Positions 13,796 to 21,093 of a DNA stretch of 53,952 nucleotides are shown here, in pieces. Each line of letters opens with the position of its first letter. The stretch's first letter is position 1. The stretch lies in assembly GCA_002727275.1 (NCBI GenBank), contig PBWO01000039.1, forward strand, positions 1 to 53,952, given 5' to 3'. This stretch comes from Methanobacteriota archaeon. GTDB taxonomy: Archaea; Thermoplasmatota; Poseidoniia; Poseidoniales; Thalassarchaeaceae. Below the pieces are notes generated by a model, which saw nothing but the letters and a program-made list of their open reading frames with translations, searched no databases and had not been told where the DNA came from. The translations under genes were made by a program, and so were the position numbers.

Positions 13796-13958
13796 GTTAT
13801 CCTCGCTTGCTCGCCGACGACTCCGAACTTAGCATTACTGTTCTGGACTTGTGCTCGCACTCTAGCATACTGAATGGTTGGGCGACGGCTTCAAGAAGTG
13901 CCTCAATCTGGAGTGCCTTGTTGAGAATGAGCCTACGGCTCAATGTGGAGGCATTTAC

Positions 13959-15119
13959 ATGAAACTTGGAGTCATAACTGAGCCTGAGGGGGAAAATAGA
14001 GTCGCCATCGTTCCCAATTCGATACCCAAGTTGAGTAAAGCCGGATTCAAAGTATTAGTTGAATCTGGAGCAGGTTCTTCATCGAGTTATTCTGATGCAG
14101 AATATGAGTCCAAGGGTGGCAGTATTACTTCCAGAGATGAGGCACTTTCCGCCGACCTTCTAGTAACCATCCACATGCCCGAAACTTCCGAAATGAAAAA
14201 TGGACAAGTCTTGGCTTGTGTAGCCGATCCTTTCCGAAACCCAGAGCGAGTCAAGCAGTGCATGGATTCCTCAATCACTTTGCTTAGTATGGACATGATT
14301 CCTCGAAGACTCTCTAGGGCCCAGTCAATGGATGTCAACTCCAGTCAAGACAACCTTGCTGGTTACAAGGCCGTCCTTATGGGAGCAGCCCAACTTGGCA
14401 AAGCCATTCCAATGATGACAACTAGTGCGGGAACTGTAAAGCCTGCAAAGTTCGTCATCATGGGCAGTGGTGTTGCAGGATTGCAAGCAATAGCAACGGC
14501 CAAGCGACTAGGGGCAATCGTATTCGCATCGGATGTTCGAAAGTCAGCAGCTGAGCAAATCGAGTCTGTGGGTGGCCGATTTATCGAAGTAGAGGGAATG
14601 GATGATTTCGAAGACGAGTCAGGCTATGCCAAGCCCCTGACTCCAGAGTTTATTCAAAAGGTCAATGACACTGTCTGTGAAGTAGCCAAGGATGCCGACG
14701 TCATTGTCACTACGGCTAGAATCTTCGGAAGGCCGGCCCCAATTACCGTCCCTGCAAGCGCTGTTGCCTCATTCAAACCAGGTTCTGTTATTGTCGACAT
14801 GAACGCTGATGTCGGAGGTAACTGTGAGTTGACAGAACCCGGGCAAACCATTGTCAACAATGATGTTACAATTGTCGGAATAGAGAATCTGCCAGGTACA
14901 ATTGCCTCTACTGCTAGCATGCTTTATTCGAACAATCTGACAAACTTCGTCTCCTCATTGATGATAGATGGAGAATTTACCCTCTCGATGGAAGATGATG
15001 TATTGGTCGGAGCCGAGGAAGACTCAGATTTCCACGTACCCGGTATGGGTGGAGTGCTAATATGCGCTAATGGCGAGATTCATCCTAAACAGTCTAGACT
15101 ATCGGAGGTGGTAGAGTGA
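13959..15119 (+). CDS. pntAA: Proton-translocating NAD(P) transhydrogenase alpha subunit, domain I (PntAA)
   Basis: MKLGVITEPEGENRVAIVPNSIPKLSKAGFKVLVESGAG; GSGVAGLQAIATAKRLGAIVFASDVR; start set to internal ATG. Confidence 0.92.
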   Translation: MKLGVITEPEGENRVAIVPNSIPKLSKAGFKVLVESGAGSSSSYSDAEYESKGGSITSRDEALSADLLVTIHMPETSEMKNGQVLACVADPFRNPERVKQCMDSSITLLSMDMIPRRLSRAQSMDVNSSQDNLAGYKAVLMGAAQLGKAIPMMTTSAGTVKPAKFVIMGSGVAGLQAIATAKRLGAIVFASDVRKSAAEQIESVGGRFIEVEGMDDFEDESGYAKPLTPEFIQKVNDTVCEVAKDADVIVTTARIFGRPAPITVPASAVASFKPGSVIVDMNADVGGNCELTEPGQTIVNNDVTIVGIENLPGTIASTASMLYSNNLTNFVSSLMIDGEFTLSMEDDVLVGAEEDSDFHVPGMGGVLICANGEIHPKQSRLSEVVE

Positions 15120-15436
15120 GTCTGACCGTAGCAGCTCTGATTGGTAGCATCACCGTTTTCATCTTAGCTATTTTCCTAGGATTTGAGTTGATCAGCAAGG
15201 TTCCACCGACTCTGCATACACCTCTAATGTCAGGCGCCAATGCAATCTCCGGAATTACCATAGTCGGCGCATTGATTCTTTCCAACACTGCATTCAACGA
15301 AGGCGATCCGGGAACAGCCGCTTGGCTTGCATTCGCTGCTCTAGTTATGGCCACCATCAATGTAGTCGGCGGATTCATGGTCACAAATAGGATGCTTGAG
15401 ATGATTGCTGGCAAGAAGAGAAAGGGGGGTGAGTGA
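15116..15436 (+). CDS. pntAB: NAD(P) transhydrogenase alpha subunit, membrane domain (PntAB)
   Basis: GFELISKVPPTLHTPLMSGANAISGITIVGAL. Confidence 0.93.
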   Translation: MSLTVAALIGSITVFILAIFLGFELISKVPPTLHTPLMSGANAISGITIVGALILSNTAFNEGDPGTAAWLAFAALVMATINVVGGFMVTNRMLEMIAGKKRKGGE

Positions 15437-16885
15437 TTGGTAGATGCAGCAGTTTGGGATATCGGCTATCTGATGGCGGCGGCCCTATTCATCCTTGGAA
15501 TCAAGAGACTCTCAAGTCCTAGAACTGCTCCTCAGGGCAATAGAATGGGTGCGATGGGAATGTTCCTAGCAGTTCTAGTAACATTGGCACGAATGCAATC
15601 AGAAGGAGTTATTGGTTGGGAATTGATTGTCGGAGGCCTCGCTATTGGTGCTATTATTGGAGCTTTGATGGCCACTAGAGTGGAGATGACAGGAATGCCC
15701 GAACTCGTTGCATTGTTCAACGGTTTTGGAGGGGGGGCGTCTGCATTGGTCGCTCTTTCAGAGGTTTTAGGTAGATTACAGCAAGGAAACGTTCCAGATG
15801 CCGGAATCGAGTTGTATGCAATCTGGATAGCTATTGGGCTTTCAGGGATAGTTGGATGGGTAACACTGACTGGCTCTCTTGTGGCGATGATGAAACTCAA
15901 AGGAGGTTTCTATGTCCCATTTAGTAAGAAGGATGAGCGTGGCCGCTCTAAGTGGATTAGCTTCCCTACATGGGGCCCTAAGTGGTTGAATACCGTCAAG
16001 ATACTTCTCCTTACAACCTCTCTAGCATTGATTTGGATGACCATCGATGACCCGACTAATAGGGACTACATTTGGATGATAGTGGGCTTCTCAAGTCTAC
16101 TTGGCATACTATTCGTAATGCCAATAGGTGGTGCAGATATGCCTGTAGTAGTTAGCCTACTAAACTCGCTATCAGGAATAGCAGCCGCATTCACTGGATT
16201 CGTAATCGGAAACAATGTCCTAATCATTGCAGGTTCAATGGTCGGTGCAGCAGGATTAATTCTTACTTTCATCATGTGCAAGGCGATGAATAGAACTCTA
16301 CCCGATGTCCTATTCAAGGCGTTTGGCGGGTCAGGTGAGAAGGACCAGTTGACTCGTAGTAAGGTCGGCAGCGATCCAGAAGAAGTCGCAATGGTTCTAG
16401 ATGGCGCCCAGAAGGTAATTGTCGTCCCAGGATATGGGATGGCAGTCAGTCAGAGTCAGCACGCAGTCAAGGAGTTCGCAGATTTGATGGAAGCAGAGGG
16501 CTGTGATGTTTCCTATGCTATACATCCAGTAGCAGGTAGAATGCCGGGACACATGAACGTCCTATTGGCTGAAGCGAGCGTCCCCTATGAGAAACTCATC
16601 GAGATGGACGACATCAATTCCGAATTCCCAGATTGCGATGTTGCTTTGGTAATCGGTGCTAATGATACGACCAATCCAGCAGCTCGAACCGGAGAGGGTC
16701 CTTTGGCAGGGATGCCTATCCTAGATGTCGACAAGGCCAGAGTAGTTGTAATCATCAAGAGGAGCCTTTCTGTTGGCTACGCCGGAGTCGACAATGATGT
16801 CTTTTACATGGACAAGACAATGATGCTTTTTGGCGATGGTAAGAAGATGATGAATGAACTTAACTCGGCATTGAAGGAGTTGTGA
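15437..16885 (+). CDS. pntB: NAD(P) transhydrogenase beta subunit (TTG start)
   Basis: GGADMPVVVSLLNSLSGIAAAFTGF; VIVVPGYGMAVSQSQHAVKEFADLME; PVAGRMPGHMNVLLAEA. Confidence 0.95.
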   Translation: MVDAAVWDIGYLMAAALFILGIKRLSSPRTAPQGNRMGAMGMFLAVLVTLARMQSEGVIGWELIVGGLAIGAIIGALMATRVEMTGMPELVALFNGFGGGASALVALSEVLGRLQQGNVPDAGIELYAIWIAIGLSGIVGWVTLTGSLVAMMKLKGGFYVPFSKKDERGRSKWISFPTWGPKWLNTVKILLLTTSLALIWMTIDDPTNRDYIWMIVGFSSLLGILFVMPIGGADMPVVVSLLNSLSGIAAAFTGFVIGNNVLIIAGSMVGAAGLILTFIMCKAMNRTLPDVLFKAFGGSGEKDQLTRSKVGSDPEEVAMVLDGAQKVIVVPGYGMAVSQSQHAVKEFADLMEAEGCDVSYAIHPVAGRMPGHMNVLLAEASVPYEKLIEMDDINSEFPDCDVALVIGANDTTNPAARTGEGPLAGMPILDVDKARVVVIIKRSLSVGYAGVDNDVFYMDKTMMLFGDGKKMMNELNSALKEL

Positions 16886-16958
16886 GTCAGCGCATCCCTC
16901 TGGGATGCGTTCAGGCAACGGTTATGAGACTCCAACCGACGAGGTGGTACCGGTGACA

Positions 16959-18011
16959 ATGCGAGCAGCACTGACCAAAGCCTCGGTTTGCTTGGTAATA
17001 TTGACCATTCTAGCACTCCCTGCTTTGGGGATGAGTGGTGGACCATCAGCACTCAATGGTAACGATGAGTCCACTGTGAAATACGGCTGTTCATGTCACA
17101 ACAATGGCGCCACTTCCGACAGAGTCATTGTGATGATTACCGGAGTTCCAGTGATGTATGATACAGACACATCTTATCCACTCACAATCACTGTAGCCGA
17201 CTCCCTTACGCTGGCTGGCGAAGATGGTAACACTAAGGCCGGGTTCCTATTATCTTCCGATGGCATAGGTGCCTTCTCTTGGTCGGAAGATGAAGAGCTC
17301 AGACAAGCCGAAGATGCTCCTGAAGATGTATCTCATTCAGAACCCGATACAGATGGAATCTGGGATCTAACATGGACTTCGCCTACAGAAGATGTTGGCC
17401 AAGTAAATTTCTGGCTTGTTGGTAATTCTGTAGACGGTGGTGGCGTACCCGATGAGATGGATTATTGGAACATCCTATCTTTTTCGATAAGCCCACCGGG
17501 AACGATTGCCGCTGGGGATGATGCTGCTACCTTAGAGACCAGAACAATCTCCGTTGGGGATTACGATACTCTGTTTGTCATGGAGGAATCGGAGGCTCAG
17601 AAGGAAGCAGAGAGACAAGCAGCCCTAGCCCTCAGTATCTACCAGCAGGGCAATGCCCTGTATTGGACAAGCCTGGTCGCTCTATTAGTCGGGGCAATTG
17701 TCCAAAAAGAAGTTCTTGAAAGACGCTATGGCGATGGACCCGATTATTTAGCAAATGAGCTAGCATATCCACAAGCAATTCGCCGGGGCTTACTCAGTGT
17801 AGCATCATTCATCGTCGGAGTTCGATGGCTATCTTCGGATACGGCGATTGGATTCCCTCCCGCTAGCATAGTCCACGAGGGTACTCGAATTACAGACCTA
17901 ACTGGGTTCCTAACCGGATGCGCCTTCTTCCTCAGCGCATGGGCAGCGTATGGAGTATACAGGACAATATTGGCCACTAGAGTTGAACGCGAGGTCAAGG
18001 ACATCCTCTGA
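16959..18011 (+). CDS. Secreted, membrane-anchored protein with CxCHN motif; Reeler / choice-of-anchor-V-like domain
   Basis: Signal peptide MRAALTKASVCLVILTILALPALG; GGPSALNGNDESTVKYGCSCHNNG; beta domain; C-terminal hydrophobic helices. Confidence 0.6.
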   Translation: MRAALTKASVCLVILTILALPALGMSGGPSALNGNDESTVKYGCSCHNNGATSDRVIVMITGVPVMYDTDTSYPLTITVADSLTLAGEDGNTKAGFLLSSDGIGAFSWSEDEELRQAEDAPEDVSHSEPDTDGIWDLTWTSPTEDVGQVNFWLVGNSVDGGGVPDEMDYWNILSFSISPPGTIAAGDDAATLETRTISVGDYDTLFVMEESEAQKEAERQAALALSIYQQGNALYWTSLVALLVGAIVQKEVLERRYGDGPDYLANELAYPQAIRRGLLSVASFIVGVRWLSSDTAIGFPPASIVHEGTRITDLTGFLTGCAFFLSAWAAYGVYRTILATRVEREVKDIL

Positions 18012-18016
18012 GAAGT

Positions 18017-19132
18017 ATGGAACACCCAAGCTCACTCAGAATAGGATTTCCAAAGCATCTTTCAGAGTTATACTCTATTTTCCGGCAAACAGTAATCCTT
18101 GTGATAATCTCATCTTTTCTATGGGGGTATGCGAGCGATTCTCTGATGACTTCTTGGCTCAATTCGTTACCGCTGGGAAACTCTTCACTGGATCTTTCTA
18201 TCTATTCTCCATTTGATTGGCTAGAGATGAAATGGGCAATTTCAATCCTATTGTCGGTAATGACAATCATGCCTTTACTTTCTATCCGACTTCAGAGATT
18301 TGCCTCACCTGGGTTATTACCAAGTGAGCGAACTTGGTTTGCATCGATTCTAGCATTTTGCACATTGATTCTACCACTGGCTACAATTTTTTTCTGGTGG
18401 CTTGCATTTCCTGTGCTTCTTGAGGAAGCGATCGCAGCAGATTCTCTTGAAGGCGTTGGTACCAGATACGATGCGGCTGCTATCTTCAGTCTAGCAATCG
18501 GAGTAACTTGGGCAATCCTTTGTATCACAATTGCCACTGTGGCACTTTCCTTGGCTCGTCTATTGGGATTGGTCGAGAACGGGACTACCAGACTTCGCAA
18601 TAGGTTACTAGTGATTATTGGTGGTGTACTTTTCCTTACTCTTCCCTCTGAATTTGACGGACTTCGGATTTTGTTTGCTTTAATTTCAATGCTTATTGCA
18701 GAACGAATTTCATCTAGTTTACCTGCTTCTACATTGGGCAGGAGAAGTTTCAATGTGCATGATATATCTCCAAATCGAAACTCTCTGAGAATGGCCATAG
18801 TTGACTGTTCCTGTGAAGGTGTCTGCCCTAAGATACCTGAGGGAGTTGTACCGGATGGTATCGCGACCCCTACTTGTGATGCACTGTGCCTTAATAGGAA
18901 TGAGCAAGACGCTCTAGCCGACTTGGTAATGCAATACTCAATCACTAATTTGGTGGTTACAGGATGTGATGCAACCCCCCTTCCTGATAATTTCAAAAAG
19001 AGCCTTAATTCAGTAGAATGCAACTTGAGCGGATTGGGTTGGTTGGATGATATCAGAACCAATTCTGATCATTGGAAGGCCAAATCAGTGATACATTCGA
19101 CTCAAATTGTAACCGAGACTACATTGGATTGA
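18017..19132 (+). CDS. tatC: TatC-like twin-arginine translocase subunit with C-terminal cysteine-rich (HdrA N-terminus-like) extension
   Basis: HLSELYSIFRQTVI near N-terminus; RYDAAAIFSLAIGVTWAILC...LLGLVENGTTRLRNRLLVIIGGVLFLTLPSEFDGLRILFALISMLIAERIS matches TatC pattern; then DCSCEGVCP...TCDALC...LVVTGCDATPLPDNF. Confidence 0.7.
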   Translation: MEHPSSLRIGFPKHLSELYSIFRQTVILVIISSFLWGYASDSLMTSWLNSLPLGNSSLDLSIYSPFDWLEMKWAISILLSVMTIMPLLSIRLQRFASPGLLPSERTWFASILAFCTLILPLATIFFWWLAFPVLLEEAIAADSLEGVGTRYDAAAIFSLAIGVTWAILCITIATVALSLARLLGLVENGTTRLRNRLLVIIGGVLFLTLPSEFDGLRILFALISMLIAERISSSLPASTLGRRSFNVHDISPNRNSLRMAIVDCSCEGVCPKIPEGVVPDGIATPTCDALCLNRNEQDALADLVMQYSITNLVVTGCDATPLPDNFKKSLNSVECNLSGLGWLDDIRTNSDHWKAKSVIHSTQIVTETTLD

Positions 19133-19158: not shown

Positions 19159-21093
19159 ATGAACCCAGCCCGCGCTGCTCTTGCAGCAATTATCCTACTG
19201 CTAGGGGCGTGGGCAAACACTAGTCCAGAGGTACTCGATGATTGGTTAGGTAATCAGGCTCCGATTTCTTCTGAAGAGCCCGAGTTAGTCGGATTGCAAG
19301 AAATAGAAGAATGGTTGGTTCTTAGGGTGGAATTCCCGAATCGACAATTCGATCAAAACAAGGCAGATGCGATGTTTGTTTCTGATGGCCCGGCTAGTCG
19401 CTACATAGATCAGATGAGCGGCTCCCAGTCTATTCTGAAAGCCACTATCTCGGATAGAATTTGGACATCCCCCAACTCTGAGAGCCATTGGGGTTACGAT
19501 TCCGATGAAGAAAGGGACGTTTCAGTAGATGGTTTAGTCGAGGCATCTTGTAGTGATTTGTTAGATGGCATGGACCTTACAAAATGGGACTTTGATGGAG
19601 ATGGAGCTGTAGATCGACTACTCATACTTCATTCCGGTCGCGCCCAAGAATCAGGCGCTGGCTCCGATGCTCTATGGAGTCACATGTCTTGGCTTATCGA
19701 ACCTTTACAAATCGGGGACTGGTCAGTTAATCACTACACAATAGCATCATTAGATTCTGGAATTGGTACTGTAATCCATGAAATGCTGCACCAGATGGGG
19801 GCATACGACTTGTATGATGTTCACAGCGATATCCCGTCATCAAACTGGAATGGGTTAGGCGACTGGGACATCATGGCCAGTGGAAATTGGAATGATAATG
19901 GGAACACCCCCGCTTTACCAGGAGCTGCTACATTGGATTTGATTGGTGCTAACAGATACTCCGAACTCGAATTGTTGACCAACTCAACTCATTTGCTTGA
20001 GCCCGTATCGCAAGGGGGCCAAGGTCTAGCAATACCGATTGCTCCGGGTGAGAAGATATGGGTTACCTACAGAGGAAACTCGGGATTCGATTCAGATTTA
20101 CCAGGTCATGGCATTTTAGTTGAGCATTCTGATGAGAACAATGGCAATCCTGTTGAAAATCTAGTAAACACTGACCCAGATAATGCCTGGGTCAGAATAA
20201 TCGAGGCAGATGGCGATGCCGCATTGGAAAGAGGTAGAGACTCCGGAAGTCCTGGTGATGTTTTCGACACAGGAGAATCCTTCGGAGCCTCTGGAATGAA
20301 GATAAGGGATAATCGAGGCAGACTAGTTGAATGGACCATTTTAGTCCAAGATATATCTGATGATTCGGCAACCGTTTCGATTACTGTCGATATGTCTTCT
20401 AATGTAGTTTCTTTAACCCCAAGATCTCCAGTACAATTACTGCCCACAGAATCTATTTTTGTTGAAGTAACGACAACTATGACGTGCAATCTGGAGATCG
20501 CGCTCAGGACTCATCAGTCAGATAACTCACCCCCTGAGTACATAACAATCCCTGAAGGAACATACGATGTTCAGATTTTGAGTTCCGAAGACGCACCTTC
20601 TGCTTCCTTCACCTTGACTGGAACCATCGGCTGCGAAGAAGAGAGTAAACGAGACATTTCACTAGAAGTCAACATTATTGGACACAGGATGTCCAATGAA
20701 GAGTTGTTCTCTGTAATTTCTTGGGAAAATCCCTCAATAATCAGCCTGACTCCAAAATATGAAGGCGATGGTGAAGTAACATATTCAATCGCTCTTGAAG
20801 GTGCGACCTCCAGAATCGCGTCTGCTCAGACACCTGCTACCTTATCTCCCGGAGATCCGATTGTATTAGATGTCGATCCAATGGGGCTCCTAGAGCCAGG
20901 GATGCTTGCAAGGGGCACCATCGTACTCTTAGATAATCACGGGCACGAGCACCGTATACCATTACTGCTAGAGGCCGAATCTCCATTCACTGGAGATGGT
21001 TGGCTGGCGTGGTTCGCAGAACCTTCCAATGGCCTACTAGTTATTTCGATACTTCTGGCAATATCAATTGTAACCGGCGGTCGTAGAGAATAA
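19159..21093 (+). CDS. Secreted M6-family (immune inhibitor A-like) metalloprotease
   Basis: Zn motif GIGTVIHEMLHQMGAYDLYD (HExxH) plus GLGDWDIMASGNW; signal-like N-terminus; C-terminal TM; start set to internal ATG. Confidence 0.85.
   Translation: MNPARAALAAIILLLGAWANTSPEVLDDWLGNQAPISSEEPELVGLQEIEEWLVLRVEFPNRQFDQNKADAMFVSDGPASRYIDQMSGSQSILKATISDRIWTSPNSESHWGYDSDEERDVSVDGLVEASCSDLLDGMDLTKWDFDGDGAVDRLLILHSGRAQESGAGSDALWSHMSWLIEPLQIGDWSVNHYTIASLDSGIGTVIHEMLHQMGAYDLYDVHSDIPSSNWNGLGDWDIMASGNWNDNGNTPALPGAATLDLIGANRYSELELLTNSTHLLEPVSQGGQGLAIPIAPGEKIWVTYRGNSGFDSDLPGHGILVEHSDENNGNPVENLVNTDPDNAWVRIIEADGDAALERGRDSGSPGDVFDTGESFGASGMKIRDNRGRLVEWTILVQDISDDSATVSITVDMSSNVVSLTPRSPVQLLPTESIFVEVTTTMTCNLEIALRTHQSDNSPPEYITIPEGTYDVQILSSEDAPSASFTLTGTIGCEEESKRDISLEVNIIGHRMSNEELFSVISWENPSIISLTPKYEGDGEVTYSIALEGATSRIASAQTPATLSPGDPIVLDVDPMGLLEPGMLARGTIVLLDNHGHEHRIPLLLEAESPFTGDGWLAWFAEPSNGLLVISILLAISIVTGGRRE

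Follow-up and report, generated by a model that had tools for sequence, protein, structure and literature searches.

How the readiness of cofactors is checked before export through the Tat pathway is a long-standing question, and the task is usually assigned to separate chaperones, the redox enzyme maturation chaperones TorD, DmsD and NarJ being separate and soluble proteins. Two TatC proteins are found in one cell in Bacillus (TatCd and TatCy) and in haloarchaea (TatCo and TatCt). TatC itself is obligately oligomeric (PMC5102672). The E. coli structure shows residues E15, F94 and E103 in contact with the twin-arginine signal and T208 and Q215 in contact with the TatB helix; this helix is flanked by TMH5 of one TatC and by TMH1 of the adjacent TatC (PMC13323110). 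The cluster in the N-terminal domain of HdrA takes one ligand in trans, Cys197 from the partnering HdrA (PMC9012536).

Among the papers searched, none joins TatC, HdrA and a fusion of the two, and none describes a TatC from Marine Group II. Here, a TatC paralog with a C-terminal extension is described from an archaeal order, presumably Poseidoniales (Marine Group II), encoded on a stretch of 53,952 nucleotides that was analysed as a whole and is called the window.

The tatC2 open reading frame

Positions 18017-19132 on the forward strand of the window form one unbroken ORF of 371 aa, named TatC2 (Table 1). A match to the TatC family PF00902 covers residues 13-201 (E=1.4e-13, 51.6 bits against a cutoff of 25.1), which bears out the TatC reading given to the N-terminal part in the initial annotation. 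Scores against the canonical TatC equivalogs were both below cut-off, with 34.8 versus 192.6 bits for TIGR01912 and 32.4 versus 132.7 bits for TIGR00945. By its sequence, the protein is a divergent TatC paralog and not a canonical TatC. From about residue 255 it continues in a soluble, cysteine-rich tail of about 110 aa. Among the relatives found, one bears a name, the MAG Euryarchaeota archaeon isolate SAT11.

Table 1. Features of the tatC2 locus and of the candidate cargo (window coordinates unless a contig is given).
Feature	Position	Strand	Basis and remarks
Three transhydrogenase genes (pntA alpha-1, pntA alpha-2, pntB), upstream	13878..16885	+	NCBIfam; in 56-58/61 loci
Choice-of-anchor V protein, secreted, membrane-anchored, GC[ST]CH motif	16905..18011	+	NF041895, E=5.5e-17
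TatC domain of TatC2, residues 1-244	18017..18748	+	PF00902, hydropathy, ortholog tree; about six hydrophobic segments
H14 and E17, counterparts of H12 and E15 of E. coli TatC (binding of the twin-arginine signal)	18056..18067	+	Alignment; role from PMC13323110
Loop from F95 to E104, with the counterparts of E. coli F94 and E103 (binding of the twin-arginine signal)	18299..18328	+	Alignment
C-terminal extension with HdrA-N-terminal-like [4Fe-4S]-type domain	18749..19129	+	Core at about residues 257-340; AF2, Foldseek, hhalign
C264-x-C266, first two conserved Cys	18806..18814	+	Invariant in 39-tail alignment; aligns with HdrA C-x-C
C291, third conserved Cys	18887..18889	+	Invariant in 39-tail alignment; corresponds to HdrA YMC/YTC with a small hhalign shift
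C317, fourth conserved Cys (GC)	18965..18967	+	Invariant in 39-tail alignment; aligns with HdrA AAC/ASC
M6 metalloprotease gene, downstream	19159..21093	+	TIGR03296, E=8.6e-32, and PF05547; in 60/61 loci
Rieske Fe-S proteins	L289-L300; G000:C39:13149-14054		RRxF[LM] Tat-type signal

Similarity of the tail to the N-terminal domain of HdrA

Searches of the tail against Pfam, NCBIfam and the PDB with sequence HMMs gave no credible match, and homology was therefore assessed by fold and by profile-profile comparison. The AlphaFold (AF2) model of the window tail had a pLDDT of 91.2 and a pTM of 0.84. When this model was submitted to Foldseek, the top seven PDB matches were all HdrA, with a probability of 1.00, TM-scores of 0.53-0.59 and E-values that are only moderate at around 1e-3 (1.2e-3 to 3.3e-3); the next PDB match followed at 6.5e-2. 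A second tail model, from an alignment led by sequences of family f2 (pLDDT 90.3), again placed HdrA at ranks 1-5. The tails of f2 are longer and superpose loosely for that reason, so that the ranking is taken as the evidence.

Upon comparison with hhalign, the profile of 41 tails scored 46.0 against that of 30 HdrA N-termini (E=5.5e-7 for one comparison, probability 92%). The reversed profile and 100 column shuffles did not exceed 21.7, shuffles keeping the Cys columns reached at most 26, and a score of 31 was still obtained with all Cys masked. The HdrA sequences had been fetched with a bait sequence; real sequences were used in the comparison and the bait itself returned HdrA from the PDB. 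No HdrA N-terminus was detectable with this bait in the sampled genomes of the order. Independently of any bait, the tail profile was run over 243 genomes of the phylum and gave a single match outside the order, weak when taken alone (E=7.4e-4 for one genome), which proved to be the N-terminus of a 596-aa HdrA-like protein (L174, an ORF on the reverse strand).

The fold search, the profile-profile comparison with its controls and the genome scan agree with one another and with the HdrA-N-like C-terminal domain put forward in the initial annotation; no other family came up for this half. On the evidence of predicted fold and profile, the tail shares ancestry with the [4Fe-4S] domain at the N-terminus of HdrA. 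A whole HdrA was ruled out as the identity of the window protein, since the FAD-binding thioredoxin-reductase and ferredoxin domains are missing and Pfam and NCBIfam scans find TatC only. At loci L047, L048 and L050 and at most f2 loci (L074-L092), the HdrA-like core is followed by 60-80 extra residues with a confidently predicted fold.

Conserved cysteines of the tail

The tail of the window protein contains seven cysteines (C264, C266, C270, C287, C291, C317 and C335), one more than the six first counted, and only C264, C266, C291 and C317 are strongly conserved. In an alignment of 39 divergent tails (19-62% identity to the first sequence), the invariant columns are C20, C22, C47, G72 and C73, corresponding to C264, C266, C291, the glycine before C317 and C317. 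All four core cysteines are present in 51 of 56 domains, two domains having none, two having two and one having three. The CEGxC cysteine (25 of 56 domains) and the late cysteine (36 of 56) are variable and thus fall outside the core set.

A shared fold is no proof that a cluster was retained. The tail could also serve structure or docking, or form a zinc or thiol site, keeping the HdrA-N fold without a redox cluster and holding TatC1 or cargo in position. A cytoplasmic cluster would presumably meet oxygen in oxic surface water, and L237 and L239, both of f2, keep the domain with all four conserved cysteines gone, which suggests that in the lineages concerned the domain is decaying or has a role without a cluster. 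Yet in tails as divergent as these exactly the four cysteines are invariant while the others vary, and they match those of the HdrA N-terminal domain in order and approximate spacing. A purely structural tail is considered unlikely, and the four conserved cysteines are predicted, with good likelihood, to bind a [4Fe-4S] cluster. For the TatC2 tail, no partner cysteine equivalent to HdrA Cys197 is known; as this HdrA ligand is supplied in trans, a ligand in trans for the putative cluster of the tail is conceivable by analogy.

Two TatC paralogs with complementary losses

Two TatC genes were present in 52 of the 60 genomes searched and a single TatA in 39 of 40. The second paralog, TatC1, lies at G000:C5:1060-1716 (L176) in the genome of the window, with further copies at L094-L123, and is unlinked to tatC2. 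Residues were mapped on the numbering of E. coli TatC with a reference sequence that agreed with 16 of 16 residue numbers checked.

TatC2 keeps the signal-binding positions. The H12 equivalent is found in all 41 tailed and in 18 of 20 untailed TatC2, position 15 is mostly E or D without being strict, and all 61 TatC2 rows of the order have equivalents of F94 and E103; tailed TatC2 do not retain Y100. Largely missing from TatC2 are E170, P172, T208, D211, S214, Q215 and E227, the TM4/TM5 positions E170, T208 and Q215 being mostly hydrophobic. The Pfam match does not require these polar residues, but their absence is a departure in function. TatC1 shows the complementary pattern: H12, E15, F94 and E103 are absent, and Q at 170, P172, S at 208, P209, P210, D211, S214 and E227 are kept in every one of 29 rows (two genomes were included twice, which leaves 27 distinct copies at the level of loci). 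Position 215 is L or M in TatC1, Q215 being lost, but M or Q also occur there in other TatCs of the phylum.

With the twin-arginine contacts gone from TatC1 and the polar TM5 residues gone from TatC2, neither paralog looks complete alone. The simplest reading, and a reasonably probable one from these alignments, is a heteromer with the signal site on TatC2 and the TM5 surface on TatC1. Separate translocases with their own substrates, as for TatCd/TatCy of Bacillus or TatCo/TatCt of haloarchaea, would agree with the unlinked position of the two genes and have precedents, pairs of TatCs with separate substrates being known elsewhere. Such a division of labour is rather improbable here, given two paralogs whose residue losses are complementary, so that neither looks complete, and one TatA found per genome.

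Rieske protein as candidate cargo

A cytochrome bc-type Rieske protein is encoded in 142 of the 146 genomes of the order. RRxF[LM] with a hydrophobic stretch behind it was present in all 12 Rieske sequences checked; two of these come from the genome of the window and several from lineages without the tail. Their assignment is based on TIGR01416 (E=1.6e-10, below the equivalog cut-off) and on the motif CTHLCC...CICHSS, and in L278 cytochrome b adjoins the Rieske gene. An RR-dependent export pathway thus appears, from these signals, to be in use. Since the Rieske protein keeps its RRxF[LM] signal and only TatC2 retains the RR site, TatC2 should be the signal-peptide receptor of the proposed heteromer.

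Two further ideas were tested and rejected. The proteins with Rieske Pfam matches near TatC1 were dismissed as Tat cargo, as they lack a Tat signal and resemble soluble proteins of the Rieske type. The presence of the tail is not tied to a Rieske substrate either: the protein occurs in tailed and untailed genomes alike, with its RR signal also in the latter, and Rieske export is therefore independent of the tail.

Gene neighbourhood

The choice-of-anchor V gene ends 5 bp before tatC2 and adjoins it in 61 of 61 loci. Its GC[ST]CH motif is possibly an unusual heme site, and a similar GCTCH protein is encoded near the Rieske gene in L274. The M6 protease placed directly after the ORF in the initial annotation was confirmed, with homologs at the related loci (Table 1). 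A Tat signal was looked for on this neighbour and is not conserved, and no link between the protease and the tail was found. The order pntA, pntA2, pntB, choice-of-anchor V, tatC2, M6 protease is kept with or without the tail.

This conserved synteny with the pnt genes and the CxCH choice-of-anchor V protein, together with a tail akin to part of an electron-transfer enzyme, allows a different view: TatC2 would have given up its role as export receptor and would now tether an electron-transfer tail to the membrane, with the GCxCH protein and the proton-pumping transhydrogenase as partners of that tail. However, the equivalents of H12, F94 and E103 are kept almost without exception, the synteny is the same where the tail is lost, and without TatC2 as receptor no RR-binding TatC would remain for the RR-Rieske protein. 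A role as mere anchor is very unlikely.

Distribution and evolution of the fusion

A TatC2 ortholog was matched in 139 of the 146 genomes of the order, and the tail profile in 103 of 146. The tail lies nearly always within an open frame of about 360-480 aa that also encodes TatC (366-483 aa in the extracted orthologs), in many genera; two separate genes in place of the fusion did not turn up. Conservation of the fusion and of its cysteines in Poseidoniales, which the initial annotation had left to be checked, is thus found. Untailed TatC2 are TatC-only proteins of 229-257 aa in some genera of family f1, and one extracted TatC2 copy is cut by a contig end. Although the assemblies are drafts of many contigs, a frameshift, a misassembly or a chance resemblance is excluded, as the same in-frame fusion recurs in about 100 independent genomes of many genera and the tail-HdrA profile score lies far above the shuffles. 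The fusion of TatC2 with an HdrA-N-like tail, homology included, is regarded as nearly certain.

In the sister family f3, presumably Marine Group III, TatC1 has likewise lost the signal site, and TatC2 is untailed with different neighbours. In a quick-search tree with some long branches, the TatC1 clade (support 95) and the TatC2 clade (92) each include f3 copies, and the two together stand apart from the other TatCs of the phylum (99). As f3 copies fall inside both clades, the duplication predates the order. Tail presence on the TatC2 rows corresponds to four changes, consistent with a single gain and with three losses within f1; most likely, the tail was gained once in the order. With each of the roughly three losses in f1, TatC2 and its neighbourhood remained unchanged. 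Repeated loss, and the few tails without cysteines, indicate that the tail is dispensable, and the losses argue for a regulatory and not an essential role.

Proposed model and comparison with known systems

The preferred reading, held at a probability of about 0.52, gives TatC2 the signal-binding part in a receptor of two TatCs, together with a cytoplasmic Fe-S-type domain by which the docking of cargo is modulated. In this archaeal class, the Tat receptor would be made up of TatC1 and TatC2, the latter giving the binding site for the twin-arginine signal peptide and the former the polar TM4/TM5 surface for packing of TatA. The C-terminus of TatC is cytoplasmic. This would place the HdrA-N-like tail on the cytoplasmic face, where folded cargo docks, the Rieske Fe-S protein in particular. 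The four cysteines would hold a [4Fe-4S] cluster, and docking or release of cargo would be tuned by the presence or the redox state of this cluster.

Parts of this model differ in strength. Regulation of export by the tail, in line with the redox or Fe-S sensing on the Tat receptor suggested in the initial annotation, is plausible but tentative. Its most specific form is doubtful, namely an obligate two-TatC receptor, composed of a reader and a TatA recruiter, with a [4Fe-4S] gate by which redox or Fe-S status controls the export of cofactor proteins such as Rieske. Export may in this way be tied to the redox or iron-sulfur state of the cell, in archaea that are presumably among the most abundant in the surface ocean. 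If the model is true, an HdrA-type Fe-S domain puts a cofactor check on the Tat receptor itself, and the naturally complementary TatC1 and TatC2 make it readily testable which protomer uses which TatC surface.

TatC2 resembles the TatC of E. coli and Aquifex (PF00902) in its six hydrophobic segments, H12, F94, E103, mostly E15 and the FxxPxL loop, and differs from them by the missing E170, P172, T208, D211, S214, Q215 and E227 and by the extra cytoplasmic Cys-rich domain. With the HdrA N-terminal domain (PDB 5odc, 7bkb, 8rvu), the tail shares the fold, the CxC...C...(A/G)xC order of the four cysteines and a core of about 80 residues. In contrast to HdrA, it lacks the FAD and ferredoxin domains as well as a Cys197 partner, reads GCDxxPLP in place of ACSPRxHE and is fused behind a membrane protein. 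Like Bacillus with TatCd/TatCy and haloarchaea with TatCo/TatCt, these archaea have two TatCs per cell, but here the functional-site losses are complementary and one copy carries a redox-type domain. The role proposed for the tail is similar to that of TorD, DmsD and NarJ in coupling cofactor status to Tat export; whereas those chaperones are separate soluble proteins, the domain is here built into the receptor.
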